Shown piece by piece: positions 12,278 through 37,100 of a stretch of 41,805 nucleotides of DNA. The notes below the pieces were generated by a model that saw only the letters and a list, made by a program, of their open reading frames with translations, was not told the origin of the DNA and made no database searches. The DNA lies in IMG/VR virus record IMGVR_UViG_3300028840_004839, positions 1-41,805 of that record, one strand, 5' to 3'. This DNA is from a virus. How positions within the stretch are numbered: position 1 is the first letter of the stretch; the number at the start of each line of letters is the position of its first letter. Position numbers and translations under genes: made by a program.

Positions 12278-12286
12278 CACTTATAG

Positions 12287-12314: not shown

Positions 12315-12329
12315 ATTTAAAAAACAAAC

Positions 12330-13513: not shown

Positions 13514-13514
13514 A

Positions 13515-14149: not shown

Positions 14150-14150
14150 A

Positions 14151-14372: not shown

Positions 14373-14376
14373 AAAA

Positions 14377-14460: not shown

Positions 14461-14463
14461 ATT

Positions 14464-15063: not shown

Positions 15064-15069
15064 AAGATT

Positions 15070-16327: not shown

Positions 16328-16755
16328 TGGCAGTAACTACATGGAATACAGCACCAAATTATGATGAGTGGGGATTCGATTCTTATTGGGATTGTCAGGA
16401 TTGGATTCAATACCATCAGCAATTAAAAAAGAAGTTTGGAAAGGAAAAAGCCAATTATATTTGGAATTATGCATATGCTCAAGGTTCTGCATTTTCAAGT
16501 CATTGGGATTGTCGTACAACAAACGTAAAGTTTAGAGAGTATGTTAGAAAAAATGGCTTAGACCCCTATGCAGGTGTAACTCTTCCATTAGCACCTCAAG
16601 TATTAAATTTATTTGGTTCAGGGCTTGAAACAATATCAGGATTGGGTGATTTTGTAGGTAGTGTAGGAAAGAATTTTAAAACATTAGCGTGGATAGCCGT
16701 AGGAGGTGTGGTGGTTTTTGCAGGAATAAAAATATATAAAGAAGTAAAAAAATGA
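16327..16755 (+). CDS. Trp/Tyr-rich tail-anchored membrane protein
   Basis: 142 residues. The N-terminal 85 residues are unusually aromatic and contain two WDC motifs (YWDCQDWIQYH and HWDCRTTNVKF) that could pair as a disulfide or bind metal. A linker follows, then one membrane segment at about 119-135 (LAWIAVGGVVVFAGIKI). ATG overlaps the protease stop. I recognise the style of this aromatic domain from phages of Bacteroidota but have no name or function for it. Confidence 0.7.
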   Translation: MAVTTWNTAPNYDEWGFDSYWDCQDWIQYHQQLKKKFGKEKANYIWNYAYAQGSAFSSHWDCRTTNVKFREYVRKNGLDPYAGVTLPLAPQVLNLFGSGLETISGLGDFVGSVGKNFKTLAWIAVGGVVVFAGIKIYKEVKK

Positions 16756-16901
16756 GCAAACGCCAAATATATATAGCAGGAATCATAGTAAGTGGTATTT
16801 TATTGACCATCTTAATTAAGAAAAACCTGAAAAAGGATGCTGATACTGACGATGCTGATTTACAAAAGGTTTTACGTAAAATAGATAACGCGAAAAAATA
16901 A
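16752..16901 (+). CDS. 49-residue N-terminally anchored membrane protein
   Basis: ATG at 16752 overlaps the preceding stop (ATGA), and the TAA at 16899-16901 overlaps the next ATG. Membrane segment at about 6-22 (IYIAGIIVSGILLTILI), basic stop (KKNLKK), then a short charged helix. Coding is supported by the perfect fit between neighbours. Role unknown. Confidence 0.6.
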   Translation: MSKRQIYIAGIIVSGILLTILIKKNLKKDADTDDADLQKVLRKIDNAKK

Positions 16902-17440
16902 TGAAAACAGATAAGGTCTTAAAGATAACACTCTATAGTATACTTGGGCTAAGTGCAGTATTTGGTGCGACACTTTTGTTAAAACCAAAAAAAGATGATG
17001 ATGAAGATAATGGAGATAATGGCGAAGAAGAACTTCCTGAAGGCGAAGATGAAATTAGTGAAGAGCAACGTAAGATACCTGATGGTATTCAAAAAATAAA
17101 ATCAAACGATACAGTAGCAAAGGGAACTAAAGTATTTGCTAAGTTAGATGGCATAAAAGGCAGAACCCAACCTTTTGTCAATAATGGTCTGATAAACAAC
17201 ATTGTTTGGGAAGGTGAAAATAAAGGAGAATATTTAGGAGTAGTCCAAAGCAGTAAACCCGATAGGGGTGGAATGTCAAACCTTGATGGAGAAACATACA
17301 TTTGGTTCAAAGTTAAACTTGACCCTACACCTTGGAACAGGTATAATAATACAAAAAACTTTTTTACTAAACAGCGAGATATGAATTCTCAAAATGATTT
17401 TGCGTTTTTTAGAGAAGATACTTTAACAACGAAAAAATGA
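16901..17440 (+). CDS. N-terminally anchored protein with SH3-like beta domain
   Basis: 179 residues. Membrane segment at about 8-27 (ITLYSILGLSAVFGATLLL), a long acidic linker, and a domain at about 70-145 (VAKGTKVFAKLDGIKGRT..., later EYLGVVQSS and TYIWFKVKL) that has the strand order and the closing W-x-K-V of bacterial SH3-like domains. Such domains often bind cell-wall peptides. The next gene carries a peptidoglycan-binding-like domain in the same setting, so both may help the virion contact the wall. The SH3 call is by pattern only. Confidence 0.6.
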   Translation: MKTDKVLKITLYSILGLSAVFGATLLLKPKKDDDEDNGDNGEEELPEGEDEISEEQRKIPDGIQKIKSNDTVAKGTKVFAKLDGIKGRTQPFVNNGLINNIVWEGENKGEYLGVVQSSKPDRGGMSNLDGETYIWFKVKLDPTPWNRYNNTKNFFTKQRDMNSQNDFAFFREDTLTTKK

Positions 17441-17898
17441 ATAAGAATTTAAAATACGGTTTAATATTTACAGGGGTCGTTGCAGGTTCCTATTTAATTG
17501 TAAAAATCATTCAAAATTTGAGAGGATTAGGAAAGTCAGATGCTCAAGAGGCAGAAGACCTGCTTGCAAGTTTAGAAAAAACAGGAGGCTCTACAAACAC
17601 AAACCAAACAAAGTTTATACCTTCATTTAAACTTTCAAAGAAAAATTCAAATGTGAAAAAACTTGTAGAGGATATACAATCGTATCAGAATGAGGCTGTA
17701 GATTTTGCAAAAGAGGGTAAAAAGGTGACTGTAGATGGTTTTTTTGGATATAATACTTACACGGCATTAAGAGATGAGCCGCTTGCAATAAGAACTTCGA
17801 AAATGAATGCTTTTGTATCGAACCCAACTGAGGCGGGTGCAAAAGAATTGAAACGCTCTATCGGAGGAGAACTTGGACAATTAACATTTAAAAAATAA
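17437..17898 (+). CDS. N-terminally anchored protein with peptidoglycan-binding-like domain
   Basis: 153 residues. Membrane segment at about 7-25 (YGLIFTGVVAGSYLIVKII). Residues about 64-110 read LSKKNSNVKKLVEDIQSYQN, then VTVDGFFGYNTYTALRDE. This matches the PG_binding_1 pattern of a V..LQ..L helix followed by DG.FG..T..A(L). Known for the family: binding of peptidoglycan. In a membrane-anchored virion protein this would help entry through the wall. The basic tail and the four-base overlap with the previous gene fit the operon. Confidence 0.65.
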   Translation: MNKNLKYGLIFTGVVAGSYLIVKIIQNLRGLGKSDAQEAEDLLASLEKTGGSTNTNQTKFIPSFKLSKKNSNVKKLVEDIQSYQNEAVDFAKEGKKVTVDGFFGYNTYTALRDEPLAIRTSKMNAFVSNPTEAGAKELKRSIGGELGQLTFKK

Positions 17899-18539
17899 TG
17901 GATATAGATGCTTTTTTCCCAAATGAAGATTTGTTTTACTCATTGGATGGGAATGACAAAATGAATTTTGTTGGTGCAGGACATAATGCATGGCAAAATA
18001 AAGATGAATATAAGTTTGCGCCAAAAGCACAATATGATTTTGAACCTGATGAAACATATGCTCAACTTGGTGGTTCAGGAATGGGAGCAGATACTGTGTA
18101 TTCACCAAATTATTTAAACGCATATGGTGGTGAAAATCCAAATACTTGGTCAGACTTAAGAAAAAAGAATAGAGAAGGTCACGGAACAAGAAAATATCTT
18201 GATAACCTTTCCCCTGAAGATTTAAAGGACTGTAAAAAATTAGATGCAGTTCTAAGTGCAATAAAAACCGAAATTGTAAATAATAATCGTACTGCTCTTG
18301 AAAGTAAAGCACAGGCAAGAGTAATGAAAGGTTATAATGAAGGTTTGGGCAAGGCGAAAGGTGAAATTGAGAGAATAATGAAATCTCTTAACTGTGAAAT
18401 AAAAGGAGAGGAAGAATTTATGGATACCCTTGCTGAAATTAACAAGGGCACAAAAGGTTCAAATGTAGTCCTATATGGTGGAATAGCGGTTGCCGCAATA
18501 GGATTAGGTATAGTATTGTATCGCGCATTAAAGAAATAA
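17898..18539 (+). CDS. Tail-anchored membrane protein with helical stalk
   Basis: 213 residues. The N-terminal 75 residues are acidic and aromatic, with KMNFVGAGHNAW near residue 21 and GGSGMGADTVY near 58, both loosely like the recurring motif. Residues about 95-180 are helical and charged, with two Cys (C114, C164). One membrane segment lies at about 190-208 (VVLYGGIAVAAIGLGIVLY), with the tail RALKK. Function unknown. Same plan as its neighbours with a longer stalk. Confidence 0.7.
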   Translation: MDIDAFFPNEDLFYSLDGNDKMNFVGAGHNAWQNKDEYKFAPKAQYDFEPDETYAQLGGSGMGADTVYSPNYLNAYGGENPNTWSDLRKKNREGHGTRKYLDNLSPEDLKDCKKLDAVLSAIKTEIVNNNRTALESKAQARVMKGYNEGLGKAKGEIERIMKSLNCEIKGEEEFMDTLAEINKGTKGSNVVLYGGIAVAAIGLGIVLYRALKK

Positions 18540-18540
18540 A

Positions 18541-19464
18541 ATGATTCAAAACGTAAATAAAGAATTAGGATTGGCTATGGTTGGTAAAAGTCTACCCGCA
18601 CCCAACTTGAATTATCAATTAGGATTGTCTAAAGGTCAATCCGATATGCTTTCGTTCGATGGTACTTATGTAGTTCCTTCAGATGCCGTTAGAACAGGTA
18701 ACAGCACTTTCAATAGGTATATAAACGATAGAAAAGATAAGGTTTTGTCTTTATCCAAAAAACTACAAAACGATAGAAATTCAGGAGTTTATTGGGATAG
18801 AAGAGTTTTGGATTTGGATGTAAACGAAGAGTCAATTAGGGAATTATCCAAAAGTGCTGAGGAAAAATCAAAGGAGTTCTTAAATAGAGCCAAAAAATTA
18901 CGTCAGGAGGCTATAGATGAAGAAAACGATTGGAATACTTCAGCCGCTAAGGCAAGAGAAAGAGTAGATGCCCAAATTAATACAAGTCAAAGAAATAAAA
19001 AACTTGACGATGCGGCTTATTCTAAAATCGGAGGAATTCGAGATTCATTAATTCGTCATGCTTCATATAAAGTATTAAGGGATGCATATATTAGTGAATT
19101 AGAAGTGCGACTTGACAAACAAAAACAAGTAAGGGATGCTTTAGCATCCGAAGATGTAAAAAAACTACAAAATGCATTAGGTTTAGCCACAACTGAAAAA
19201 CAAAAAAATGCCCTTCAAGCAAAAATTGACTTTGTTAAGGAATCCGAAAAGAGGCAATCAAAAATAGACACACTGACCGACCAACTTGCAGGTGCGACAG
19301 GTGAGCAAGCCGAAGCGATAAAAAATGAAATAGATGCTTTGAGAAATGAAGAAAATATTGCTCGAGGTAATTTACCCGAAGAGGCAAAACCAAATTATTT
19401 ACTGATTGGCGGTGTAGGTTTAGCCGCTTTATTAGGTGTTGTTTTGATTTTAAGAAGAAGATAA
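18541..19464 (+). CDS. Tail-anchored long coiled-coil membrane protein
   Basis: 307 residues. A non-helical N-terminal 45 residues (with MLSFDGTYVVPSDAV) precede a long charged helical region, about 50-280, with heptad-like spacing. One membrane segment follows at about 287-304 (YLLIGGVGLAALLGVVLIL), ending RRR. The largest protein in the run. A rod of this length (about 30 nm if fully helical) could act as a spacer between membrane and capsid or DNA, or as a tape. No family recognised. Adjacent genes overlap or abut it. Confidence 0.7.
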   Translation: MIQNVNKELGLAMVGKSLPAPNLNYQLGLSKGQSDMLSFDGTYVVPSDAVRTGNSTFNRYINDRKDKVLSLSKKLQNDRNSGVYWDRRVLDLDVNEESIRELSKSAEEKSKEFLNRAKKLRQEAIDEENDWNTSAAKARERVDAQINTSQRNKKLDDAAYSKIGGIRDSLIRHASYKVLRDAYISELEVRLDKQKQVRDALASEDVKKLQNALGLATTEKQKNALQAKIDFVKESEKRQSKIDTLTDQLAGATGEQAEAIKNEIDALRNEENIARGNLPEEAKPNYLLIGGVGLAALLGVVLILRRR

Positions 19465-20270: not shown

Positions 20271-20648
20271 ATGAATATCAAAAAGGATTTTTTCAAGGGC
20301 ATAACTGCTTTTGCAAATAAATTTGAAGTAAAAGAATCTGAAATACAGGTTCGTCTTACCTTAAACAATCAAGAAGGTGAGCCTATAAAATATCAGGCTT
20401 GTACCAATTGGACACCCAAAGAGGACACTTCATATAATGAAGTTATGGGTAACAAGATTATAAATCTTACCGAAACAATAGTCGTTCCTATGCTTCATCA
20501 ATCAATGACTAAATGGGCAAGAACACTTGACGTTGATTTTAAAGATTTTAGCGCATTCCTATTTAAATTCAAGGACAATGTTGCCGTAGCAATGTATAAT
20601 GGAACTACGAGTGTTAAAATGTGTCCTATCGACGAATTGATGGAGTAA
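20271..20648 (+). CDS. Soluble protein of unknown function, first gene of the fibre block
   Basis: 125 residues, no membrane segment. Looks mixed alpha/beta, with [20 protein letters not shown] near the start and a helical segment around 60-90. No family recognised. Its stop overlaps the next start (TAATG), and the following two genes code fibre-like proteins, so it may be an assembly factor or base protein for the fibres. Confidence 0.65.
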
Positions 20649-21532
20649 TGAATGTTTCCAAAATTTCGCATTGGATGGTTCGTACCCTTGAGGGTAATGG
20701 GTTGGCTATTTACGTAGGAGAAGACAATCAAGTTTATCTCAAAGACCAAAACGGCACGATTCAGGCTTTAACAGACTACATAAAAAACGTCGAAGTACCT
20801 GAAGGTGGATTCCAAAGTGGTAGTTCAGGAACTTCAGGAAAGACTCACGGTACATCAGGAACTTCGGGGAAAGATGGAACTTCGGGAGTAGATGGAACTT
20901 CGGGAGTAGATGGAATTGGAATAGACGGTTCATCAGGTTCTGCGGGAACGTCGGGAACATCGGCATCAAGTGGTAGTTCGGGTAGTTCGGGCAAAAGTGG
21001 AAGCAATGGTACATCGGGAATATCGGGTTCGGTTGGAACATCAGGAACATCTGCAACTTGTGGAACCTCGGGAATTAATGGAACGATGGGTACGAGTGGT
21101 ATCAATGGAACATCAGGAACTTCAGGCATAAACGGAGACCGAGGCTTATCAGGGAAAAACGGTTCTTCAGGAACCTCGGGTCAAAAAGGAACTTCAGGAA
21201 CAAGCGGTAAAGGTTATACTGTAGGTAATGTTATATCAGGAAGCAAGACCAAAATTGATTTTACAGAAAATCAGATTGTTTCTTTATCTTTGAAAGTGAA
21301 TACAACTTTTCATTTTGTTGGATTTCCTGTAGGTATTTTTTACCTTGTAATAGAACAAGGGGTTGGAGAATATTCAATTACCTTCCCTTACGGGGTGAAC
21401 GAGTCATCGGGAAATGAATATATACCATCAAAAAGAGAATTTGCAAAAGATGTTTTACAATTAATGTGTGATGGCACAGCGTATTATATAATCGACTTTA
21501 AGAAAGACTTTAATGGCAACAACGGTAACTAA
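20648..21532 (+). CDS. Short collagen-like fibre protein
   Basis: 294 residues from the ATG at 20648. The N-terminal module (about 1-48, [16 protein letters not shown], then [17 protein letters not shown]) is shared with the next gene. Residues about 58-195 are Gly-x-y triplets rich in Ser/Thr (GTSGTSG type, also GKDGTSG, GINGTSG) with a few broken triplets. The C-terminal 100 residues form a compact beta-rich domain ending DFNGNNGN. Inference: a trimeric fibre with a virion-anchoring base, collagen-like shaft and terminal knob. The shaft resembles the giant gene at 28172 in composition. Confidence 0.75.
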
Positions 21533-22274
21533 AAGTTTGGCGAGAAATATAAAAACTGTAGAGGGCAATCCCCTTGTAGTTTTTGTTGACCAAACAGATG
21601 GAGCACTTAAAGTAAAAGATATAGATGGTATAGTTGAACCCGTCACAAATTATACGGGAAGTGGAGGCACAAGTGGTATACAAACACTTAACTCGCTCAC
21701 TAACCCAAATCAATTACTTGTAACAGGAACTTCAGGAACAGATTTCGCAATACAATCATCAGGCAATACCCATACATTTAACATGCCCGATGCAAGCACA
21801 AGTGGAAGGGGTGTTATAAATACGGGTACACAAAAGTTTGCGGGTGTGAAAACATTTGCTGATAATTCTTTTTTTGAAGGTGATGTTGATATTGCAGGAA
21901 CACTGACTGCGGAAGCAAAATCATTTTTAATTCCACATCCTGACCCGTCAAAACAAGGATGGGATTTGCAACATGGAAACTTAGAGGGTGGAGAACATGC
22001 AATATATGTTCGCGGTCATCTTCAAGGGACAAATATTATTTATCTACCAACCTATTGGAAGTTTTTAGTACACTTAAAAAGTATTACTTGTCATTTGACA
22101 AGTGCTAAAGGCGATTATCGATATTTTGTAGAAGATGTGAATTTAGAACATGTACGTATTGGTAAAAATGAAGGTGCTCTTGATACCTTCGACTGCTTTT
22201 TCTTGATTCATGCGGAACGACGAGATATCGGGAAACTAAAGGTTGAAATAACACCTATGGAAAAGCAGTATTAA
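21513..22274 (+). CDS. Fibre-like receptor-binding or collar protein
   Basis: 253 residues. The N-terminal 50 residues match the anchor module of the preceding gene ([20 protein letters not shown] then [15 protein letters not shown]). A short GTSG segment follows, then a module [20 protein letters not shown] (about 105-125) leading to [26 protein letters not shown]. The last part resembles fibre modules of tailed phages in which FxIPHPxxxGxxLxHxxLEGxExxVYxRG is found. Here the run is [19 protein letters not shown] (about 150-168). Probable structural fibre protein. It overlaps the previous gene by 20 bases. Confidence 0.7.
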
Positions 22275-24241
22275 TGAAAAGAGTTTTACATCTTGTTCCC
22301 CATTTAAGTACAGGGGGATGTCCACAATTTGCCTACGATTTAATTCGTAAGACGAAGAAATACACCGAAGCATTCGTTGTTGAGTATTCATTTATTGCAC
22401 CCGACTTTGTAGTTCAAAGAAACAAGGTTAGAGAATTAATGGGTGAAAGATTTTACTCCCTTGGAGATAATAAGGATGAAATATTTGACATAATTGAAAA
22501 TGTAAATCCCGATGTGATACACTTTCAGGAATTCCCTGAATATTTCATGGCAGACGAAATTGCTACACGTATTTACGAAAGTCAAAGGTCTTACGTTATT
22601 GTTGAAACATCACACGATTCAAGTTTTGACCCAAACCATAAAAAGTTTTTTGCAGACCACCTTGCCTTAATAAGCCAATGGCAAATTGATAAGTTCAAGT
22701 TGTACGAAATCCCAATTACTTTATTAGAAAGCGATATTGAGAAGTATCCTAAAGTGAATCGTAGTGAAGGGCTTGCTAAACTTGGTTTGTCCGACCATCA
22801 AAAGCACGTTTTAAATGTGGGATTGTGGACTTCACGAAAAAACCAAGGAGAAATAGTTGAATATGCTCGGAAAATTCAAAATAGCCACCCTAATATAATT
22901 TTTCACTTTGTAGGAAACCAAGCGGGAAATTTTGCCCACTATTGGGAACCTATTATGAAAGACCTTCCTGCTAACTGTAAAGTATGGGGAGAGCGTAGTG
23001 ACGTTCACAACTTTTATTCTTGTATGGATTTATTCTTGTTTACATCCCGTGGATTGCACGGTGATATGGAAACAAGTCCTTTAGTGCTTCGTGAAGCCAC
23101 AGGTCACGGAATGCCGATACTCATGTATAATCTACCCGTCTATCTGAATCAGTACGATGGGTTTAAAAATATTCAGTATTTAGACTTTGATAACCTTGAA
23201 CAAAACTTGCAGGACATAAAAAAAATCTTGGAATATGAAACCCCTGTAAAAGAAGAAAAACAAAAAAAGTCCAATTTTTACAGCGAACTTGATGTAGTTG
23301 AAAATCGTATTACCATTTTTCACGAAAGCAACGAAGAAAAGCAAGTATCAATTTCAATTGCTGACGTGGATACCAAGCACGCCATTTATGCGTTTGATGC
23401 ATTTTTTAATGGCAAATCAAGTGTGTGGGTAATTCCTATTCCTGCGGAAGCCCGTGATAACCTTTTAAATAAAAGTGGGTTGTTCAGGGGATATGAAATT
23501 TCAATCTACGAAAATGATAGAAAAACGCTTTTGGCAATAAACCAAGTTTTTTATAATCAACAAGATAAGAAAATAAATACCCCCTTGTTTTTAACAAATC
23601 CTTGGAACTTGACTTGGTTCAATTACAATGAAATGTTTGTAGATAAAATATATAAGGGTGTTGCAGATGATTTTGATGAATACTTCGAATCGTTTGTTGA
23701 CATAGGGGCAAACGACGGTTTATTTATTGAGTGGCTGTTGTCAGAAACCAAAGAATTTGGTAAAAAGTATTATGCTGTAGAGTGCGACCCAAGGGCGGTG
23801 AAGTTTCTCGACAAAAAATTCAATGACAGGGATGAAGTAGTTGTGGTGAATAAAGCACTTTGGAAAGAAAACGCGCAAGGACTTACGCTGAATCACGAAG
23901 GCGATACTTCTACATTGAGTTCGTTAAAAGTAGATAAATCAGGTAAAGTTTCTGTGAATGCTTGGGATTTAAAAACACTTAAAAGCAAACACAATATTAA
24001 ATACATCGATTTTCTAAAAATGGACATAGAGGGTGCTGAATATGAAGTCATTAACAGTTGGACTGAAGAAGATGTAAAGGGTATCAGAATGTTCCTTATT
24101 GAATTTCACAATAATTTGCAAAACCTAATGGATAAATTTATGCAATGGGGTTATGCCGTCAACCCACACGATGCTTCAGGTAATGCATTGAATCAAATAC
24201 AGATTCCCGACCACGGATTTTTAACAGCCAAAAAAATATAA
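22274..24241 (+). CDS. Fused GT4-type glycosyltransferase and FkbM-type methyltransferase
   Basis: 655 residues. Residues 1-320 are a GT-B glycosyltransferase of GT4 type: N-terminal VLHLVPHLSTGG, domain junction VGLWTSRKNQGEI, and a nucleotide-sugar region METSPLVLREATGHGMPIL at about 265-283. A beta module follows at about 345-460 (VSISIADVDTKHAIYAF ... NPWNLTWFNYNEMF). Residues about 470-655 are an FkbM-type methyltransferase with SAM motif VDIGANDG (475-482), ECDP (503-506) and MDIEGAEYE (583-591). Known for the families: sugar transfer and O-methylation of glycans. The beta module and methyltransferase are repeated in the next gene. Inference: decorates the collagen-like fibre coded downstream, or changes host surface sugars. 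Confidence 0.85.
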   Translation: MKRVLHLVPHLSTGGCPQFAYDLIRKTKKYTEAFVVEYSFIAPDFVVQRNKVRELMGERFYSLGDNKDEIFDIIENVNPDVIHFQEFPEYFMADEIATRIYESQRSYVIVETSHDSSFDPNHKKFFADHLALISQWQIDKFKLYEIPITLLESDIEKYPKVNRSEGLAKLGLSDHQKHVLNVGLWTSRKNQGEIVEYARKIQNSHPNIIFHFVGNQAGNFAHYWEPIMKDLPANCKVWGERSDVHNFYSCMDLFLFTSRGLHGDMETSPLVLREATGHGMPILMYNLPVYLNQYDGFKNIQYLDFDNLEQNLQDIKKILEYETPVKEEKQKKSNFYSELDVVENRITIFHESNEEKQVSISIADVDTKHAIYAFDAFFNGKSSVWVIPIPAEARDNLLNKSGLFRGYEISIYENDRKTLLAINQVFYNQQDKKINTPLFLTNPWNLTWFNYNEMFVDKIYKGVADDFDEYFESFVDIGANDGLFIEWLLSETKEFGKKYYAVECDPRAVKFLDKKFNDRDEVVVVNKALWKENAQGLTLNHEGDTSTLSSLKVDKSGKVSVNAWDLKTLKSKHNIKYIDFLKMDIEGAEYEVINSWTEEDVKGIRMFLIEFHNNLQNLMDKFMQWGYAVNPHDASGNALNQIQIPDHGFLTAKKI

Positions 24242-24246
24242 ATAAA

Positions 24247-26037
24247 ATGTTTAGAGCCGATTTTCACAAAGACGAAAACAAGATTTTCTTATACTACGAA
24301 GATGCACCTTATAAAGAAGTAAGCATTTCAGTAGCAGATGTTGACAGTAAACACGCGATTTACGCGTTTAATTCAAAGTTTGAGAATTATTCAAGCCTTT
24401 GGACTATTCCTGTTCCTGCAAACGCATTGAACCACTACAATCGTTCAGGATATTTTAGGGGATATGAAATCAGCATATACGAAACAGACCGTACTACATT
24501 AATTGAGAAACACGTCGTATGGTACAATCAGGACGCACCACATTTTGAACGTGTTATGTTTGAAACAGACCCTTGGAATCTTACTTGGATTAACTACACC
24601 GAAATGTTTGTCGAGGACTTTTATAATCCTTTGGCAATGAATATTCACGGGGTATGTTTAGACATCGGAGCAAACGACGGTTTATACACCGAATACTTGC
24701 TTCGTAATGGAGCAGAAAAGGTTTATGCTATAGAGTGTGACCCAAGGAGCGTAAAGTTCCTTAATAAGCGTTTCAATAGCGACGAGCGAGTAGTTGTAGT
24801 AGACAAAGCCCTGTTTTCAAAAAACGAAGTAGGTATGAAGTTGGCTTATAAAAATGAAACGTCAACAACGTCTTCACTTATTGATGGTGTACACAATTTT
24901 GACGATGGTCAATATTATGAAGTGAATGCTTGGGATTACAGCACCTTGCTTCGTAAAATGAATATCGACCAAGTAGACTTTTTTAAAATCGATATTGAAG
25001 GAGCGGAGTATGATGTATTTAGGTCTATGACCGATTTTCAGATTTGCCACATCAAAGCGTTTATGGTAGAAATACATTGGAACCGCGATGGAAGAATCTA
25101 TGAAATTACCAACAGGCTTCAGAGTTTGGGATATGAAATTCAGTTGCGCAGACACACGGAAGACAATGCCGTAGTTGAAAATCGAGATGAATGGGCTAAA
25201 TATGACCTTTGCACGTTTTATGCTTGGAAAAAACCTGAAACAAACCAAATCGAGGAACAAATTCAAAACAATTATGGTGGGGAAAAAACAAATGTACACA
25301 TGCATCATTTACGCACCACTTTAAATACAGACGTAGAAAAACAGAGTTTAGAAAATATAAAATTCCTATCTGAATTTTTAAGAATGGATGAAAGGTATTC
25401 AGAAATCAAATTTACTGAATACGAAAATGAGCCATATAAGGATATACCGCCAAGAGAAAATTGTGCTCGACCTGATGCGGTGAGTCTAAGACCATTTCCG
25501 AATGGTGTAAACGAAAATGGACAAACTGCATTAACTCCTGCTCATTACGGGTGTTATGATGCATTTAAGAAGGCTTTTTTAAATAAAGATAATGAATTCA
25601 GAGATACAGATTTTCACATATTTTTTGAGGGAGATGCTTTCGTTGATGATTTTGATTTGTTTGCAGATTGTTTATCGGAAATAAGCGATGCTATTAGAGG
25701 TGGTAAGTCAATAAGTTATATTTCCTTTGGAGGTGTTCATCATTTAGAAACGGGAGAAAAACTATCATATCCTGATGGTAACATTAATGGTATCGATTGG
25801 GGATATTATAGCAAACATGTACCATTTGCGCACTGCATAATTATTCCGAGCATTTACCTGCTTCAAATGAGACAAGCCTTTGAAAATGAACCTTGGGATG
25901 TAGCGGATTTATTTTTTATGAATCATTTCAAAAAATTCCCCTCACATCGTCAATTCGTGAGCAAACATCAAATAGCAAGACAGTTAAATGGGTTTTCTTT
26001 AATTGATAAAAAAGTAAAATTATATCAGCACAAATGA
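24247..26037 (+). CDS. Fused FkbM-type methyltransferase and GT25-like glycosyltransferase
   Basis: 596 residues. Residues about 20-125 are the same beta module as in the previous protein (VSISVADVDSKHAIYAFNS ... DPWNLTWINYTEMF). Residues about 130-325 are an FkbM methyltransferase (LDIGANDG at 138-145, KIDIEGAEYD at 247-256). Residues about 400-590 resemble GT25: LTPAHYGCYDAF at 429-440 corresponds to LT.GE.GC..SH, and FFEGDAFVDDF at about 459-469 to the EDDA metal motif. Known for GT25: LPS beta-galactosyltransferases and animal collagen galactosyltransferases. Both are reasonable models beside a collagen-like gene. The usual DD of the metal site is E-G-D here. Overlaps the next start by four bases. 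Confidence 0.75.
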   Translation: MFRADFHKDENKIFLYYEDAPYKEVSISVADVDSKHAIYAFNSKFENYSSLWTIPVPANALNHYNRSGYFRGYEISIYETDRTTLIEKHVVWYNQDAPHFERVMFETDPWNLTWINYTEMFVEDFYNPLAMNIHGVCLDIGANDGLYTEYLLRNGAEKVYAIECDPRSVKFLNKRFNSDERVVVVDKALFSKNEVGMKLAYKNETSTTSSLIDGVHNFDDGQYYEVNAWDYSTLLRKMNIDQVDFFKIDIEGAEYDVFRSMTDFQICHIKAFMVEIHWNRDGRIYEITNRLQSLGYEIQLRRHTEDNAVVENRDEWAKYDLCTFYAWKKPETNQIEEQIQNNYGGEKTNVHMHHLRTTLNTDVEKQSLENIKFLSEFLRMDERYSEIKFTEYENEPYKDIPPRENCARPDAVSLRPFPNGVNENGQTALTPAHYGCYDAFKKAFLNKDNEFRDTDFHIFFEGDAFVDDFDLFADCLSEISDAIRGGKSISYISFGGVHHLETGEKLSYPDGNINGIDWGYYSKHVPFAHCIIIPSIYLLQMRQAFENEPWDVADLFFMNHFKKFPSHRQFVSKHQIARQLNGFSLIDKKVKLYQHK

Positions 26038-28154
26038 AAATAGCACACATTCAGCCTTCGGTAATAAGTATACCTCCAAATGGGTGGGGCGCGATAGAAA
26101 AAATCATTTGGGAATACAAACAAGAATTAGAGAAATTAAACCACACTGTAGATATAGTCAACCTGAATGATTTTAATGCTGATACATACGATATCGTGCA
26201 TTGTCACATGTTTGACCAAGCCTTAAAACTTGCGGAAAGAAACATACCTTATTTTTACAGTCATCATGACCATCATTCTATAGTTTGGGGAAAGGAAAGT
26301 ACAAATTACCAATTGAATCTTGAGGCTATGCAAAAAGCCGAAATGGCTTTTGTACATGCAAAAAGTAGCATTGATACCTTTGAAAGAGTGCCCTTTTATT
26401 TACCTCATGGAGTAAACAGAGATTTTTTTCAATATAATATAAGAGAGAATAAATATAGACCTCAAATAATTATTGTAGGAAATAATGGTTTGGCAGGAAC
26501 TAACACCGTTTTTGACCGAAAAGGTTTTAGATATGCGATAGAAGCATGTAAAAAACTTGGACTTGAAATAACATTGGTTGCTCCAAGTAAAACTCAAATA
26601 CAATTTTTCGAAGAGAATCCTGATTTGAAATATGAAAAGTTAAAATGTATTTACGATGCTACAGAAGACCAATTGCATGAAGCCTACAAGTGTGCTGATT
26701 TGATGATACACGCTACATATGTTGAGGCAGGACATCCCCCTCTGACACCTTTAGAAGCACTTTCCTGCGGAATACCTGTGATTGGAACATATATGGGTGA
26801 AGATGTTCCCTTAATGCTTTGTGAAAGAGATACCAATAGCGTTATTGATTGCATCAATAGTATGATTCCCGTCCTTAAACAATACAGTTTAAAAGCAGAT
26901 GAAGTCGCAGAAAAATACAATTGGAAAAATATTGTACGGGATAATCTTTTGGATTATTATAATCAAAGTCTTGACCGTAAAAATATGCAAAACACGGGCA
27001 GGAGAATTTATCATCAAGCAGTGCGCAAAGAAGCGATTGATAAATTTGTTTTTAAATATATTGATGGTGCTCAGGTCGATGTGGTTGGTCAAAGTGAAAA
27101 AGAATATAAAGTCCAACAAATAAATTATTTGACGGGTGATGTCATTTTTGAAACCAACTTAAAATGTGGTATGTATGCAAAAAGTGCCAAAAGATACCAT
27201 CGCGAATGGGTTTGGAAAATTATTGATTCCGAAAATAGAGAATATCTACATCCCTTCGATGCAGAGGATAAACGAGTTTATGTGTCCATTGAATCATCTT
27301 CACTTGGAGATACACTTGCTTGGGTTCCAATAGTTGAGGAATTTCGTAAACTACACGATTGTAAACTGATTTTAAGCACACATTGGAATGATTTAGTACA
27401 GGAAGCATATCCTGAAATAGAATTTGTAAAAGCGGGTACTCCTGTTTATAATATTTATGCTCATTATCGAATTGGTTGGTTTTATGAAAACAATGGTCAA
27501 GAACCTCATTTTGGTCATCATTCAAGAGATTTTAGAAAATTTTCGTTGCAGGCAACCGCCTGTGATATATTAGGATTGCCTGATATTGAAAAAAAACCAC
27601 GTATAAAAAATATTGATACTGAAAAAATTAATAAAAAAATTGCTGTTATTGCTCCTCACGCAACAGCATGGGCTAAATATTGGCACAATTCGGAAGGATG
27701 GGAAAAAGTTATTGATTTTTTAATAGAGCAGGGTTACGAAGTATGGAATATTTCAAAAGAATCGGCTCAGGATGCATTTCACAATCAAAAATTACCACAA
27801 AGCGCATTAGACAAAGTTATTGATAAGACGGGTGATTATCCTATAGAAACAAGGATTTATCAGATAAAATGCGCATCTTTGTTTATTGGATTAGGAAGCG
27901 GACTTTCGTGGTTGGCTTGGGCTTGTGAAACCCCCGTAGTCTTGATTAGTGGTTTCTCAAAGCCCTACAGCGAATTTACGGATTGTATTCGTATATTTAA
28001 TCAAAATGTGTGTAATGGGTGCTTCAATGATTACAGGCTTGACGCAGGTAATTGGCAATGGTGTCCTAAATATGAAAATACTGCTGAACAATTTGTATGC
28101 AGTAAATCAATTACTCCCGAAATGGTAATTGATGGTATTAGGAAACTTTTGTAA
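26034..28154 (+). CDS. Fused GT4 glycosyltransferase and TibC/Aah-like heptosyltransferase
   Basis: 706 residues. Residues 1-315 form a GT4 domain (NGWGAIEK near the start, EAGHPPLTPLEALSCGIPVIG at about 231-251). Residues about 335-400 are a small beta module (FKYIDGAQVDVVG, then YAKSAKRYHREWVWKI) followed by a GT9-type domain to the end. Its C-terminal part has IGLGSGLSWLAWACETPVV (about 618-636), FSKPYSEF and four cysteines, C660-x2-C663-x13-C677-x11-C689. This combination is typical of the bacterial autotransporter heptosyltransferases (TibC, Aah), which hold an iron through four cysteines and O-heptosylate serines of repeated adhesins. Inference: target is the giant Ser/Thr-rich fibre next door. 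Confidence 0.8.
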   Translation: MKIAHIQPSVISIPPNGWGAIEKIIWEYKQELEKLNHTVDIVNLNDFNADTYDIVHCHMFDQALKLAERNIPYFYSHHDHHSIVWGKESTNYQLNLEAMQKAEMAFVHAKSSIDTFERVPFYLPHGVNRDFFQYNIRENKYRPQIIIVGNNGLAGTNTVFDRKGFRYAIEACKKLGLEITLVAPSKTQIQFFEENPDLKYEKLKCIYDATEDQLHEAYKCADLMIHATYVEAGHPPLTPLEALSCGIPVIGTYMGEDVPLMLCERDTNSVIDCINSMIPVLKQYSLKADEVAEKYNWKNIVRDNLLDYYNQSLDRKNMQNTGRRIYHQAVRKEAIDKFVFKYIDGAQVDVVGQSEKEYKVQQINYLTGDVIFETNLKCGMYAKSAKRYHREWVWKIIDSENREYLHPFDAEDKRVYVSIESSSLGDTLAWVPIVEEFRKLHDCKLILSTHWNDLVQEAYPEIEFVKAGTPVYNIYAHYRIGWFYENNGQEPHFGHHSRDFRKFSLQATACDILGLPDIEKKPRIKNIDTEKINKKIAVIAPHATAWAKYWHNSEGWEKVIDFLIEQGYEVWNISKESAQDAFHNQKLPQSALDKVIDKTGDYPIETRIYQIKCASLFIGLGSGLSWLAWACETPVVLISGFSKPYSEFTDCIRIFNQNVCNGCFNDYRLDAGNWQWCPKYENTAEQFVCSKSITPEMVIDGIRKLL

Positions 28155-28155
28155 C

Positions 28156-28179
28156 ATGAAAATAGCACCCGATGGCTAA
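28156..28179 (+). other. Seven-codon open frame, possible remnant of a glycosyltransferase start
   Basis: ATGAAAATAGCAC at 28156-28168 is identical to the first 13 bases of the gene at 26034, then runs to a stop at 28177-28179. It overlaps the start of the fibre gene. It may be the scar of a duplicated and lost glycosyltransferase gene, or a leader that couples translation. Confidence 0.3.
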
Positions 28180-31100
28180 AAACATATTGATAACTCCGTT
28201 TAGGTCAAGTACAGACCCTACGGAATTACCTAAAATAGATTTTATTAATGATACCACCGACATTGTGTTGGAGGTACAATCAAGCACAAACGCTTTAACA
28301 TTTACGGGTACTTCAGGTACTCTTTTAACTATTAATGACGACCTTACAGGTACAACAGTAGAAACTGAAAACCTAAAGGTTACGGGTTCTCTTGAAGTAC
28401 CTAACCTTACACAAGATTTAACGATAAATGATTTTGTAGTCGTTGATACATCAACAGGAGAATTTTTTCGCAGAACAGCACCCACAGGTACTTCAGGAAC
28501 AAGTGGAGAAGACGGCTCATCAGGTATTTCAGGCTCTTCGGGTACTTCAGGTACTGCGGGTACTTCTGCATCAAGTGGAAGTTCAGGAAGCGCAGGAACG
28601 TCAGGAACTTCAGGACAAACGGGGTCATCGGGGACTTCGGGAGCGGATGGAAGTTCAGGAACAAGTGGTGCAAATGGCTCAAGCGGAACATCGGGCGAAG
28701 CAGGGTCTTCAGGTACAAGCGGAGCAGATGGTTCAAGCGGTACTTCAGGTTTAGATGGAAGTTCAGGAACGAGTGGAGCGGATGGTTCATCGGGAACATC
28801 GGCATCAAGTGGAACTTCGGGAGCAGATGGAAGTTCAGGCACATCAGGAGCAACGGGCTCATCAGGAACAAGTGGTGAAAGTGGTTCTTCGGGAACGAGT
28901 GGACAAGACGGTTCCTCGGGTACAAGCGGAGAAAGCGGTTCATCAGGAACAAGTGGTGAAAGTGGTTCATCAGGTACGAGTGGACAAGATGGTTCCTCGG
29001 GTACAAGTGGGGTCGATGGTTCATCGGGTACAAGTGGTGAAAGCGGTTCTTCAGGAACGAGTGGTTCTGCGGGAGAAGACGGAACATCGGGAACATCAGG
29101 TTCATCAGCAACTTCAGGTACGTCAGGTGAATCAGGGTCATCAGGGTCATCAGGAACGAGTGGACAAGATGGTTCCTCGGGTACAAGTGGGGTCGATGGT
29201 TCATCGGGTACAAGCGGTGAAAGCGGGTCATCGGGAACAAGTGGTTCTGCGGGAGAAGATGGCACATCAGGCACATCAGGGTCTTCTGCAACTTCAGGCT
29301 CATCGGGAACAAGTGGAGCAGATGGCTCGTCGGGTACTTCAGGAGAATCGGGTTCTTCAGGTTCTTCAGCGACTTCGGGTAGTTCAGGAACATCAGGCGA
29401 AGCAGGGTCATCAGGTACAAGTGGTGCTGACGGTTCATCAGGAACGAGTGGAGCCGATGGTTCATCGGGTACAAGCGGTGAAAGCGGCTCGTCAGGAACG
29501 AGTGGAGCGGATGGTTCATCGGGCACATCGGGAGCGGATGGTTCATCGGGCACTTCGGGAGAATCAGGCTCAAGTGGTTCTTCAGGGACATCGGGTACTT
29601 CCGCAACAAGCGGCTCGACAGGAACATCGGGCTCAAGTGGTTCTTCAGCGACTTCAGGTAGTTCAGGAACATCGGGAGCAGACGGCACATCGGGTACATC
29701 AGGAATTGATGGTTCTTCAGGTACTTCAGGAGAATCAGGTTCAAGTGGTACGAGCGGAGCAAATGGCTCTTCAGGAACTTCAGGAGCAGATGGAAGTTCG
29801 GGAACTTCAGGAGAATCAGGTTCAAGTGGCACGTCAGGAGCAGATGGCTCTTCAGGAACTTCAGGAGAATCAGGCTCAAGCGGTAGCGCAGGCACATCAG
29901 GAACAAGCGGAAGCGCAGGTGAAGATGGTACAAGCGGTACTTCAGGTTCTTCTGCAACATCAGGGTCTTCGGGTTCAAGTGGCACATCGGGAGCAAATGG
30001 CACATCGGGTACATCAGGAATTGATGGTTCTTCAGGAACTTCAGGTATAGATGGTTCTTCGGGAACTTCAGGTATAGATGGTTCTTCGGGAACATCAGGA
30101 GAGTCAGGGTCAAGCGGTACGAGCGGAGCAGATGGCTCATCAGGCACATCGGGTAGCGCAGGCTCATCAGGAACTTCAGGCGTAGATGGAACAAGCGGAA
30201 CAAGCGGCTCGACAGGAACGTCGGGCTCAAGTGGTTCAACAGGAACTTCGGGTTCAGCAGGGTCTTCAGGTACGTCGGGTGAGTCAGGTTCAAGTGGAAC
30301 TTCAGGCTCATCAGGAACAAGTGGTGTAGACGGAACGTCAGGAACGTCAGCCACATCAGGAACATCGGGAGAATCAGGTTCAAGTGGAACTTCAGGTTCA
30401 AGCGGTTCAACAGGAACGAGCGGCTCAAGCGGCTCTTCTGCTACTTCAGGCTCATCAGGAGAGTCAGGTTCATCGGGAACTTCAGGCTCTTCAGGAAGTG
30501 CAGGAACAAGTGGCACATCAGGTAGTGCAGGTGAAGATGGAACATCAGGAACGTCGGGTTCATCTGCTACATCGGGTTCTTCAGGAAGCACAGGTACTTC
30601 GGGCTCATCGGGAAGCACGGGTACAAGTGGCTCTTCAGGAAATACAGGAACAAGTGGCTCAAGTGGTAGTTCAGGGACATCGGGGTCTTCTGCAACATCA
30701 GGAACGAGCGCATCGTCGGGTTCGAGCGGCACATCAGGTGCGGACGGAACAAGTGGAAGTACGGGGACATCGGGGTCTTCAGGTTCTACGGGTACGTCAG
30801 GTAGTTCGGGCTCTTCTGCTACTTCGGGGTCGTCAGGTTCGAGTGCGACATCGGGTAGCGCAGGTACATCAGGTACAGCGGCTACGTCAGGTACAAGTGG
30901 CGCAGACGGTTCAAGTGGAACAAGCGGCTCAAGTGGCTCATCAGGAGAATCAGGTTCAAGTGGCACAAGCGGAAGCGCAGGCTCAAGCGGTACAAGTGGC
31001 GCAGACGGTTCAAGTGGGACAAGCGGCTCAAGTGGCTCATCAGGAGAATCAGGTTCAAGCGGAACAAGTGGCTCAACAGGAACATCGGGTTCTACGGGTT

Positions 31101-34100
31101 CTACGGGTACAAGCGGCTCAAGCGGCTCTTCTGCTACTTCAGGTAGTGCAGGAACGGCAGGTACATCGGGAGCAGACGGTTCTTCAGGAACTGCGGGCTC
31201 TTCAGGAGAATCAGGCTCAAGTGGAACAAGCGGAAGTGCAGGTTCTTCAGGCACAAGTGGCGCAGACGGTTCTTCGGGAACATCAGGAAGCGCAGGAACT
31301 TCGGGTTCTGCGGGCACATCAGGAACATCGGCATCAAGTGGCACTTCAGGAGCAGATGGCTCATCAGGCACATCAGGCTCATCAGGTAGTACGGGTACAA
31401 GCGGTTCTTCTGCAACTTCAGGTAGTGCAGGAACATCAGGTACAAGTGGAGCAGATGGTTCAAGTGGAACAAGCGGGTCTTCGGGCTCTTCTGCTACTTC
31501 AGGAAGTGCAGGCTCATCAGGCACATCGGGTGCAGATGGCACATCAGGAACATCAGGAGAATCAGGTTCTTCGGGAACAAGTGGTAGCACAGGTTCAAGT
31601 GGTACTTCAGGAGCGGATGGTTCATCGGGAACATCGGGTTCAGCAGGCTCAAGTGGCTCATCAGGCTCTTCAGGAGAATCAGGTTCAAGCGGAACAAGTG
31701 GCTCGACAGGAACGTCGGGCTCAAGTGGTTCTACAGGAACAAGCGGGTCTTCGGGCTCTTCTGCTACTTCAGGTAGTGCAGGGACAGCAGGTACATCAGG
31801 AGCGGATGGCTCTTCGGGAACTTCAGGCTCAAGCGGGTCTTCTGCAACTTCAGGTTCGGCAGGAACATCGGGCACGGCAGGTGTAGATGGTACTTCAGGT
31901 ACAAGTGGTTCAGCAGGTTCTGCGGGTACTTCAGGAACATCGGCATCAAGTGGTACTTCAGGAGCGGATGGTTCGTCAGGAACTTCAGGCTCTTCAGGTA
32001 GTACGGGAACTTCAGGCTCTTCAGGCTCCTCTGCTACTTCAGGTAGTTCAGGTGTGGACGGTACTTCAGGAACTTCAGCAACTTCAGGTTCATCAGGAAG
32101 CACAGGAACATCGGGCTCAAGTGGAGCAGATGGTAGTTCAGGTACAAGCGGTAGCGCAGGTTCATCAGGAAGTGCGGGTACAGCAGGAACAAGTGGTGAG
32201 GATGGGACAAGCGGAACTTCGGGTTCTTCGGGTTCTTCAGGAAGCGCAGGTACAAGTGGCTCGACGGGAACGTCGGGCTCAAGTGGTTCTACAGGAACGA
32301 GTGGGTCTTCGGGTTCTTCTGCTACTTCAGGGTCAGCAGGAACAACAGGTTCAGCGGGAACATCAGGCACAAGTGGTGCAGATGGCTCTTCGGGAACATC
32401 AGGTTCTTCAGGTTCTTCTGCTACAAGCGGCTCAAGTGGTTCTACAGGTACAAGCGGCTCTTCAGGAGCAGACGGTTCATCAGGAACTTCAGGGTCTTCA
32501 GGTTCTTCTGCTACTTCAGGTAGTGCAGGGACTTCAGGCTCTTCAGGTATAGATGGTTCTTCAGGAACTTCAGGTTCAAGCGGAAGCGCGGGTACTTCGG
32601 GTTCAACAGGAACATCAGGGTCTACGGGCACAAGCGGCTCTTCAGGCTCATCGGCTACATCAGGGTCGGCAGGTTCTTCAGGTTCAAGTGGTAGTGCAGG
32701 TAGTGCAGGTACTTCAGGAACAAGTGGAGCGGACGGCTCATCGGGTACATCAGGCAGTTCAGGGTCTTCTGCAACAAGCGGTTCTTCGGGAACTGCGGGT
32801 GTAGATGGCTCTTCAGGCACATCGGGTTCTTCAGGGTCGGCAGGCACAAGTGGTTCTGCGGGCACAGCAGGAACATCAGCAACAAGCGGTTCTTCAGGAA
32901 GCACAGGAACTTCGGGTTCAAGTGGAAGCACAGGAACGAGCGGCTCAAGCGGCTCTTCTGCTACTTCAGGTTCTTCGGGCTCAAGCGCAACATCAGGTTC
33001 TTCAGGTTCTACAGGAACTTCGGGCTCAAGTGGAGCGGATGGCTCAAGTGGTACTTCAGGTAGTGCAGGTTCAAGTGGTTCTGCGGGTACTTCAGGAAGC
33101 ACAGGAACATCAGGTTCTTCAGGAAGCACAGGAACGAGCGGCTCAAGCGGCTCTTCTGCTACTTCAGGGTCAGCAGGTTCAAGTGGAAGTGCAGGAACAT
33201 CGGGCTCAAGTGGAACAAGCGGAGCAGACGGCTCAAGCGGTACATCAGGCTCGGCAGGTTCAAGTGGCTCTGCGGGAACAGCAGGAACAAGTGGTGAAGA
33301 CGGAACAAGTGGAACATCAGGTTCTTCAGGTTCTTCAGGAAGTGCAGGAACGAGTGGCTCTACAGGAACATCAGGTTCAAGTGGAAGCACAGGAACTTCG
33401 GGTTCTTCAGGCTCTACGGGTACAAGCGGCTCAAGCGGCTCTTCGGCTACGTCAGGTAGTGCAGGAACATCAGGCACATCAGGTGCGGATGGTTCTTCAG
33501 GAACAAGCGGGTCGGCAGGTTCAAGCGGAAGCGCAGGAACAAGTGGCTCCACAGGGACAAGTGGTTCTTCAGGCTCTTCAGCAACTTCGGGTTCTTCGGG
33601 CTCTACGGGTACAAGTGGTTCGAGTGGGTCTTCTGCTACTTCAGGTTCTGCGGGTTCTTCAGGAAGCGCAGGAACAAGTGGTTCGGCAGGCACATCAGGA
33701 ACAGCAGGTATAGATGGTTCAAGTGGGACAAGTGGTTCAAGCGGTAGTGCAGGAACGAGCGGTTCAGCAGGTACTTCAGGTACAGCAGGTATAGACGGTT
33801 CTTCAGGTTCAAGCGGAAGCGCAGGTTCTTCGGGTTCAGCAGGTACTTCAGGCTCTACGGGTACATCAGGTTCAAGTGGAAGCACGGGTACAAGTGGTTC
33901 TTCGGGTAGTTCTGCTACTTCAGGTTCTGCGGGTTCAAGTGGCTCTACGGGAACTTCAGGAACATCGGCATCAAGTGGTACATCAGGAGCGGATGGCTCT
34001 TCAGGTACTTCAGGAAGCGCAGGTTCAAGTGGTAGTGCGGGTACTTCGGGTTCTACGGGTACATCGGGCTCAAGTGGTTCTTCAGCCACATCAGGTTCTT

Positions 34101-37100
34101 CAGGCTCAAGTGCAACAAGTGGTTCGGCAGGTTCAAGCGGTAGCGCAGGAACGAGTGGTTCAGCAGGTACATCAGGAACAGCAGGTGCAGATGGTTCTTC
34201 AGGAACGAGCGGTTCAGCAGGTTCAAGCGGAAGCGCAGGAACATCAGGTTCAACAGGAACTTCGGGTTCAAGTGGAAGCACAGGAACTTCAGGTTCTTCA
34301 GGTAGTTCTGCTACTTCAGGCTCAAGCGGGTCAGCAGGTTCCGCGGGTACAAGCGGAAGCGCGGGTACATCAGGAACATCAGGAGCAGATGGTTCTTCGG
34401 GTACGTCAGGTAGTTCAGGTTCTTCAGGCTCTGCGGGTACAAGTGGTTCAACGGGTACTTCAGGCTCAAGTGGTTCAACAGGAACATCGGGCTCTTCAGG
34501 TTCAAGTGCTACTTCAGGTTCATCAGGTTCTTCGGGTAGTGCAGGAACAAGTGGTTCAGCAGGTACTTCAGGTACAGCGGGTGTAGACGGTTCTTCAGGA
34601 ACTTCGGGAAGCGCAGGTTCTTCAGGAACTTCAGGAAGTGCAGGTTCTTCAGGAAGTACGGGAACGAGTGGCTCAACGGGCACATCAGGTTCAAGTGGGT
34701 CTTCTGCTACTTCAGGTTCAAGTGGTTCTTCTGCAACAAGTGGAAGCGCAGGCTCAAGCGGGTCAGCAGGAACGAGTGGTTCAGCAGGCACTTCAGGCAC
34801 ATCAGGAGCAGACGGTTCTTCAGGAACTTCAGGAAGCGCGGGCTCTTCGGGTAGTGCGGGTACTTCAGGCTCTACAGGAACATCAGGTTCAAGTGGAAGC
34901 ACAGGAACTTCGGGCTCTTCAGGTAGTTCGGCTACTTCAGGCTCTGCGGGTTCAAGTGGCTCTGCGGGTACAAGCGGTTCTGCGGGTACAGCAGGTACAT
35001 CAGGAACAGCAGGTGCGGACGGTTCTTCAGGAACTTCAGGAAGTGCAGGTTCTTCAGGAAGCACGGGAACGAGTGGCTCAACGGGCACATCAGGTTCTTC
35101 GGGTTCTACAGGAACAAGCGGCTCAAGTGGTTCAAGTGCAACAAGCGGTAGCGCAGGTTCTTCAGGCTCTGCGGGTACTTCGGGTTCAGCGGGAACATCG
35201 GGTACGGCAGGTGTGGATGGTTCAAGTGGTACTTCGGGTAGCGCAGGTTCTTCAGGGTCAGCAGGAACGTCAGGTTCTACAGGAACTTCGGGCTCAAGCG
35301 GTTCTACGGGTACATCAGGTAGTTCAGGTTCTTCTGCAACAAGTGGTAGCGCAGGTTCAAGCGGAAGTGCAGGAACTTCGGGCTCTACAGGAACAAGTGG
35401 CTCTTCAGGCTCTTCAGCAACTTCAGGCTCTTCAGGTAGTTCTGCAACATCGGGTTCGGCAGGTTCAAGTGGCTCTGCGGGAACAAGTGGTTCTGCGGGT
35501 ACGGCAGGTACATCAGGCACAGCAGGTGCAGACGGTTCAAGTGGTACAAGTGGAAGTTCGGGTTCAAGTGGAAGTGCAGGAACAAGTGGTTCTACAGGCA
35601 CATCGGGCTCTTCAGGCTCTACAGGCACATCAGGCTCTTCAGGAAGTTCTGCTACAAGTGGTTCAGCAGGTTCTTCAGGAAGTGCAGGTTCTTCGGGTTC
35701 TGCGGGAACATCAGGCACAGCAGGTGCAGATGGCTCTTCAGGAACTTCAGGTAGCGCGGGCTCTTCAGGCTCTGCGGGTACTTCAGGTACATCGGCATCA
35801 AGCGGAACATCAGGAAGCGCAGGCTCAAGTGGTAGTGCGGGTACTTCAGGTAGTACGGGTACATCAGGAAGTTCAGGTTCTTCTGCAACTTCAGGTTCTG
35901 CGGGTTCTTCAGGTTCAGCGGGTACATCAGGCTCTACAGGAACTTCAGGCTCAAGCGGTTCTACGGGTACAAGTGGTACAAGTGGTTCTTCTGCAACTTC
36001 AGGTTCTGCGGGTTCTTCAGGTTCAGCAGGTACATCAGGCTCTACAGGAACTTCAGGTTCTTCAGGTAGCACAGGTACAAGCGGTTCTTCAGGGAGTTCG
36101 GCTACATCAGGAAGTGCAGGTTCTTCAGGAAGTGCGGGTACAAGTGGTAGTTCAGGCACATCGGGAGCAGACGGCTCTTCGGGTACATCAGGTAGTTCGG
36201 GCTCAAGTGGTTCTGCGGGTAGCGCAGGTACTTCGGGCTCTACAGGTACAAGTGGTTCAAGCGGCTCTACAGGCACATCAGGTAGTTCAGGTTCTTCTGC
36301 AACGAGCGGAAGCGCAGGTTCAAGCGGTAGTGCGGGAACGAGTGGTTCAGCAGGAACTTCAGGTACGGCAGGTATAGATGGTTCTTCAGGAACAAGTGGT
36401 TCTGCGGGCTCTTCAGGGTCAGCAGGTACTTCGGGTTCTACAGGAACTTCAGGGTCAAGTGGAAGCACAGGGACATCAGGCTCAAGTGGAAGTTCTGCTA
36501 CTTCGGGTTCTGCGGGCTCTTCGGGGTCAGCGGGTACTGCGGGAACGGCAGGTACTTCTGCAACAAGTGGTAGTGCAGGTTCAAGCGGTAGCGCAGGAAC
36601 ATCGGGCTCCACGGGCACAAGCGGTTCAAGTGGTTCTTCAGGAAGTGCAGGCACTTCAGGCTCTACAGGTACAAGTGGTTCTTCAGGTTCGTCAGCGACA
36701 TCAGGTTCAAGCGGTTCATCTGCTACAAGTGGTAGCGCAGGCTCTTCAGGAAGCGCAGGAACGTCAGGTTCAGCGGGTACATCAGGCACAGCAGGTGCAG
36801 ACGGTTCAAGTGGTACAAGTGGTAGCGCAGGCTCTTCAGGTAGTGCAGGTACTTCAGGTTCTACGGGAACGTCAGGTTCAAGTGGAAGCACAGGAACAAG
36901 CGGTTCTTCAGGTTCTTCTGCAACAAGCGGAAGTGCGGGTTCTTCAGGTAGCGCAGGAACATCAGGTTCGGCAGGAACATCAGCAACGTCAGGTAGTGCG
37001 GGTTCAAGCGGAAGTACAGGCTCAAGCGGTAGCACAGGAACAAGCGGTTCTTCAGGTTCATCAGCAACAAGTGGTAGCGCAGGTACTTCAGGTACAAGCG

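Follow-up and report, generated by a model that had tools for sequence, protein, structure and literature searches.

How a giant, serine- and threonine-rich viral fibre might come to carry sugar is the question raised by a single viral record, IMGVR_UViG_3300028840_004839 of IMG/VR, whose 41805 bases were analysed as one stretch (the window). On its plus strand, positions 26034 to 28154 encode a 706-amino-acid protein in which a GT4 glycosyltransferase domain is fused to a domain of the TibC/Aah family (TIGR04414), and the fibre gene follows directly. TibC/Aah enzymes coat Escherichia coli adhesins with heptose, and an earlier note had proposed that this virus glycosylates its own fibre with such an enzyme. 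We consider it likely that the window encodes a virion-fibre glycosylation cassette, in which the TibC/Aah-like domain heptosylates Gly-Ser/Thr-Ser triplets and companion enzymes extend and methylate the sugar. The pairing of enzyme and fibre-like repeat is found again in many other phages and in the chromosomes of bacteria; therefore, it is probable that the virus decorates its own fibre in this way.

The profile search called for by the earlier note was carried out with TIGR04414 (hepto_Aah_TibC), the NCBI equivalog model for Aah/TibC O-heptosyltransferases, which has a cut-off of 200 bits. The enzyme scored 302.3 bits (E value, 4e-90) over amino acids 332 to 704 (positions 27027 to 28145), the TibC-like domain scored 304.5 bits when the model was run on DNA, and the TibC chains 4rb4 and 4rap of the PDB matched amino acids 340 to 704 with an E value of about 1e-53. 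Models of lipopolysaccharide (LPS) heptosyltransferases reached 12 to 32 bits (RfaQ, 32; HepI, 24.5; HepIII, 19.5; HepII, 17). As judged by profile score, the C-terminal domain belongs to the TIGR04414 sequence family. The N-terminal part (amino acids 1 to 315, positions 26034 to 26978) matched the Pfam families Glyco_trans_1_4 (PF13692) and Glycos_transf_1 (PF00534), both over the cut-off and with E values of 1e-6, in agreement with the GT4 domain noticed earlier.

The residues required of such an enzyme are in place. The motif FIGLGSGLSWLAWA is present, as had been pointed out, and so are four cysteines with iron-finger-type spacing, C660, C663, C677, and C689 (CX2C-X13-C-X11-C), the counterparts of C339, C342, C358, and C370 in TibC. 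The catalytic and donor-binding residues of TibC have been named as D110, T226, K230, R286, and W305 (PMC4358343); the catalytic aspartate (D426 in the window enzyme) and all four donor-binding residues (T544, K548, R607, and W626, respectively) are kept, and G621 stands at the position of P300.

The proposed acceptor starts with an ATG at position 28172, 17 bases past the stop of the enzyme gene, which itself overlaps the upstream open reading frame (ORF; 24247 to 26037) by 4 bases in a tightly packed operon. The fibre occupies positions 28172 to 41805 on the plus strand, and its frame, open to 41404, encodes 4410 amino acids, including 1771 Ser, 651 Thr, 5 Pro, and 9 Lys; the repeated Ser and Thr that the earlier note had ascribed to the next gene are thus borne out. 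The protein is collagen-like by sequence, with 1259 Gly-X-Y triplets in runs of at least four, mainly GSS, GTS, GSA, and GST; the X positions are Ser (59%) and Thr (32%), and the Y positions are Ser (65%) and Thr (9%). After 41404, the repeat shifts to a different frame, in which it extends past the end of the window. Apparent frameshifts were seen in the repeat at 38738 to 38830 and at 41333 to 41404, where the GSS/GTS repeat carries on in the other frame, and these could be assembly errors or real variation. A minus-strand open frame (28138 to 38565; 3475 amino acids, rich in P, E, V, and L) mirrors the repeat and is probably not a gene. The possibility that inserts in the fibre form C1q-like heads was dropped, since the matches were below threshold (C1q; E value, 0.036).

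The linkage between enzyme and fibre is not peculiar to the window. With a five-sequence profile, at least 566 viral stretches were found to encode a TibC-like domain. In L001 and L006 to L009, which share 66% identity across the whole protein, the gene order is FkbM plus GT25-like, GT4 plus TibC, and giant GTSG fibre, and L001 and L007 to L009 also have, upstream of these, a GT4-plus-FkbM gene and a small Gly-X-Y protein. The co-occurrence that the earlier note had suggested checking was tested in both directions, with controls. Well-flanked loci were defined as having at least 6 kb upstream and at least 5 kb downstream of the TibC-like gene. A Ser/Thr-rich Gly-X-Y ORF lay near that gene in 20 of 26 such loci after dereplication (27 of 36 before), compared with 2 of 120 random viral loci (1.09 Mb), which were shorter (about 9 kb on average versus about 20 kb), and with 2 of 24 terminase-anchored loci from relatives of the Microcystis phage Mel-JY01 (PP395634). 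In the reverse test, contigs were chosen solely by a DNA pattern for G-T-S-G-S-S-type repeats; TIGR04414 was over its cut-off in 27 of 50 of these GTSG-fibre records versus 0 of 45 random viral records, all of at least 30 kb. The Fisher P values for the loci and the contigs (2e-17 and 3e-10, respectively) ignore shared ancestry. Chance co-occurrence is excluded by the random viral contigs and loci and by the terminase-anchored loci. The collection of cultured phages held four carrier records, namely, a 735-kb phage (two records), Mel-JY01, and a 636-kb phage; GTSG proteins are encoded within a few kilobases of the TibC-like domain in the 735-kb phage and Mel-JY01, and none was found within 20 kb of it in the 636-kb phage.

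In many carriers, the same functions are encoded in order as a first GT4 domain, a GT25-like domain, a separate GT4 protein of 315 to 325 amino acids, and a separate TibC-like ORF of about 400 amino acids; in L011, L013, L019 to L021, and others, the GT4 domain is its own ORF of about 315 to 325 amino acids just 5' of the TibC-like ORF. Since the genes are split but retain the same order, the fusions in the window are one arrangement of a modular cassette.

Enzymes of this class are also carried by methanotroph and other gammaproteobacterial chromosomes (L386, L388, L391, L392, and L454 to L465), where they are paired with small (GTS)n or (GSS)n proteins that look exported. Ten loci from bacterial genomes came out of a genome scan, four of which (L385, L387, L390, and L394) look like phage contigs; in the chromosomal-looking L386, L388, L391, and L392, the TibC-like gene adjoins or lies near genes for (GTS)17 or (GSS)n tract proteins. 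Across whole bacterial genomes, TIGR04414 matches fell into two groups, a canonical group at about 480 to 670 bits and a second group at about 264 to 327 bits. We then scored each locus for an ORF no more than 2 kb away with at least 8 Gly-X-Y triplets, these being at least 50% Ser/Thr. Such an ORF was found at 15 of 17 second-group loci, which represent two main clades and one outlier rather than 17 independent events, at 0 of 9 canonical autotransporter-type loci, and at 0 of 28 LPS-type GT9 loci (P = 2e-11). The proteins that bear the tracts mostly have a signal peptide- or lipoprotein-like start, and beyond that start and the tract, the bacterial neighbours share little. Because bacterial loci show the pairing even where a phage fibre is absent, what all these loci have in common is the Gly-Ser/Thr tract, and this points to the tract as the acceptor.

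These observations bear on two other explanations. GT4 and FkbM domains often occur in LPS and capsule loci. Together with the known ability of some phage glycosyltransferases to alter host serotype (PMC12619734), this might suggest that the enzymes act during infection on host surface glycans, such as LPS or capsule, perhaps to prevent superinfection or to alter a receptor, and that they lie close to the fibre as part of a shared host-interaction module. We regard this as quite improbable, however, given that the domain falls on the protein-modifying rather than the LPS side by profile scores and that bacterial enzymes of the same class adjoin Gly-Thr/Ser-Ser tract proteins, whereas LPS-type GT9 loci do not. 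An origin from the LPS heptosyltransferases themselves is excluded by the scores (302 versus at most 32 bits) and by the same bacterial controls. It is also conceivable that another phage protein is the target of the cassette and that the giant fibre serves as a structural spacer without modification; many carriers have the Gly-X-Y gene at a distance of 4 to 6 kb, with intervening genes, and some show no such gene nearby. Even so, the association tracks the Gly-Ser/Thr tract in neighbours that otherwise have so little in common, and we judge a different target to be very unlikely.

In a maximum-likelihood tree of 86 domains, canonical members were split (100/100) from the viral and second-group bacterial members, and the window enzyme was placed inside a viral clade. 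The earlier note had set grouping with TibC against grouping with LPS heptosyltransferases; the domain is indeed not LPS-like, but it lies outside the autotransporter-linked clade. With the TibC/Aah autotransporter heptosyltransferases (BAHT; PDB 4RAP and 4RB4), it shares a GT9-type domain, the catalytic aspartate, the donor-site residues, the four-cysteine iron finger, and linkage to a repetitive Ser-rich surface protein. It differs in being viral, fused to GT4, and partnered by a Gly-X-Y fibre instead of a beta-helical autotransporter, in its position outside the canonical clade, and, apparently, in the tip of its thumb. Among the window proteins scanned, no autotransporter families were found, and the neighbours of the enzyme are FkbM/glycosyltransferase and Gly-X-Y proteins. 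Given the clade and the missing autotransporter partner, the window enzyme is not a BAHT in the strict sense; it is best read as belonging to a divergent, non-autotransporter class that would act in a BAHT-like manner on a different acceptor, O-glycosylating Gly-Ser/Thr tracts.

In the window, the TibC-like domain does not stand alone. Three multidomain glycan enzymes and one 253-amino-acid protein, all encoded on the plus strand, are flanked by two Ser/Thr-rich Gly-X-Y proteins and together contain two FkbM methyltransferase domains, one GT25-like domain, two GT4 domains, and one TibC-like domain. The earlier note's reading of enzyme and fibre is supported by family and linkage, with the refinement that further glycan enzymes accompany this one. 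At the opposite end of the cassette from the giant fibre, positions 20621 to 21532 encode a smaller Ser/Thr-rich Gly-X-Y protein of 303 amino acids (PF01391 Collagen; E value, 2.5e-15), a second possible acceptor. It is followed by the 253-amino-acid protein (21513 to 22274; phrog_28536/17490), which is conserved in the cassettes of relatives (51 to 72% identity), and by a protein (22274 to 24241) with a GT4 domain (amino acids 168 to 322 matched; PF00534; E value, 2e-10) and an FkbM domain (amino acids 476 to 615; PF05050; E value, 1e-13). The product of 24247 to 26037 combines an FkbM domain (amino acids 139 to 297; PF05050; E value, 2e-17) with a GT25-like domain (amino acids about 345 to 591, positions about 25279 to 26019). 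The latter had no Pfam match of its own, PF01755 included, and a PDB sequence search with its profile gave nothing significant; PF01755 (glycosyltransferase family 25) was matched by 30 of 33 of its homologues (best E value, 1e-7). The AlphaFold (AF2) model of the domain had a pLDDT of 88, and its best PDB match was COLGALT1, the human collagen hydroxylysine galactosyltransferase (E value, 7e-8; TM score by query, 0.53), so that, on the predicted structure, its fold is GT25-like. COLGALT1-type enzymes likewise have a collagen-like substrate, but the window fibre is almost free of lysine (9 in 4410 amino acids), so that hydroxylysine glycosylation cannot be the main chemistry, and the metal motif of the window domain is EGD in the alignment.

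We postulate that the TibC/Aah-like domain acts after translation in the host cytoplasm, taking heptose from a nucleotide-activated sugar, most likely ADP-heptose, and attaching it to the hydroxyls of many Ser, and perhaps Thr, residues. The targets would be the Gly-Ser/Thr-Ser triplets of the giant fibre (28172 to 41805 and beyond) and of the small collagen-like protein (20621 to 21532). Extension of the sugar could fall to the fused GT4 domain, a plausible role for it, together with the second GT4 domain and the GT25-like domain, and the FkbM domains may O-methylate the glycan. The resulting coat would probably hold the nearly proline-free Gly-X-Y fibre extended, soluble, and resistant to proteases, and it would give the virion a sugar surface.

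Conservation across 80 viral homologues favours this reading: the catalytic aspartate, W305, and the four cysteines are conserved in 80/80, K230 in 73/80, and R286, which contacts adenine in TibC, in 59/80. Several observations weigh against it. The LGD and C370 motifs were demanded by the search pattern, so that their full conservation is partly a matter of construction, and R286 is replaced in the other 21 homologues. The hydrophobic beta-hairpin thumb that TibC needs to form a dodecamer (F265-V266) appears not to be conserved at its tip, which is F582-H583 in the window and W-H or a gap in most relatives, in a region of weak alignment. TibC modifies Ser and not Thr (PMC4358343). Carriers that lack heptose-precursor genes would depend on a donor from the host. 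In 9 of the 36 well-flanked viral loci, no fibre of this kind lies within about 10 kb, 23 of the 50 GTSG contigs have no TibC-like domain (many are fragments), and in only 16 of 28 cases is the domain at most 10 kb from a known GTSG match (combined P = 0.002). Closeness within a contig is thus moderate, and in large phage genomes it is a weaker signal than presence or absence. Several of these counts were drawn from incomplete contigs, and assemblies break in the repeat region itself.

Some of the same data would fit a fibre O-glycosyltransferase that uses another ADP- or nucleotide-sugar instead of ADP-heptose: the loss of R286 in a quarter of homologues (21/80), a P300 position that is Gly in 76/80 and Ser in 4/80, and the scarcity of heptose-precursor genes. 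Over the cut-off, GmhA was found in 1 of 28 TibC-carrying phage records (LR756504) and RfaE domain II in 1 of 28 (G071), so that such genes are excluded as a general trait of carrier phages, although their presence in these two phages, the retention of T226, K230, R286, and W305 in the window enzyme, and the Ser at position 300 of AAH, which takes both epimers of ADP-heptose (PMC4358343), speak for heptose. A different donor is, in our estimation, unlikely. The Gly at this position, compared with the Ser of the dual-epimer AAH, suggests that relaxed donor stereochemistry is possible.

Proline and hydroxyproline stabilise animal collagen. On balance, we lean towards the view that TibC-like protein O-glycosyltransferases include a second class, so far unrecognised but widespread among phages and bacteria, that acts on repeated Gly-Thr/Ser-Ser tracts and not on a beta-helix, and that on giant phage fibres, which are collagen-like but nearly proline-free, the sugar takes over the stabilising role of these residues. 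If so, the TibC/Aah family would divide into two classes, one linked to autotransporters and one to Gly-Ser/Thr tracts, the (GTS)n tract would be a simple heptosylation tag, and glycoproteins would be predicted in methanotrophs and other bacteria. Glycosyltransferases beside repetitive phage fibres, now labelled merely glycosyltransferase or FkbM methyltransferase, would gain a concrete enzyme, acceptor motif, and function, and there would be a proposal for how very long Gly-X-Y fibres that lack proline stay extended. Collagen-like phage proteins are known, for example, from E. coli O157:H7 prophages (PMC3368898). These share the Gly-X-Y repeats; unlike them, the window fibre is nearly free of proline, has Ser or Thr in about 90% of its X positions and about 75% of its Y positions, and is attached to a glycan cassette. 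Virion glycosylation is reminiscent of mycobacteriophages, whose glycosyltransferases decorate virion proteins (Freeman et al. 2023, as cited in PMC12619734 and PMC11256854); as described in those citing papers, the modified sites are the C termini of capsid and tail-tube proteins, compared with the fibre proposed here. A literature search of a limited library found no paper linking TibC-like enzymes with phages or with Gly-Ser/Thr repeats, an absence that does not establish novelty.

It is possible that this virus has no tail. Six related contigs (52 to 85 kb) had no terminase match (PF03237), and a match was found in 11 of 12 other TibC-carrying phage records. Positions 10410 to 19464 of the window encode an AAA/HerA-like ATPase (10410 to 11225), a strongly conserved 231-amino-acid protein (11568 to 12263), and many small proteins with a single terminal membrane helix; the 231-amino-acid protein is a capsid candidate whose model was of low confidence (pLDDT, 50) and had no significant fold match. 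Elsewhere, positions 3187 to 4302 encode an unusual viral fusion of an N-terminal DUF2958 domain and a C-terminal RelA/SpoT (p)ppGpp synthetase domain, and 6046 to 6720 and 7968 to 8615 encode Amidase_2 endolysin-like and PAP2 membrane phosphatase-like proteins, respectively. Finally, from 164 to about 21529, the window proteins are matched at 98 to 100% identity by a contig from another metagenome (L466), a near-identity that indicates that this virus has been sampled more than once.

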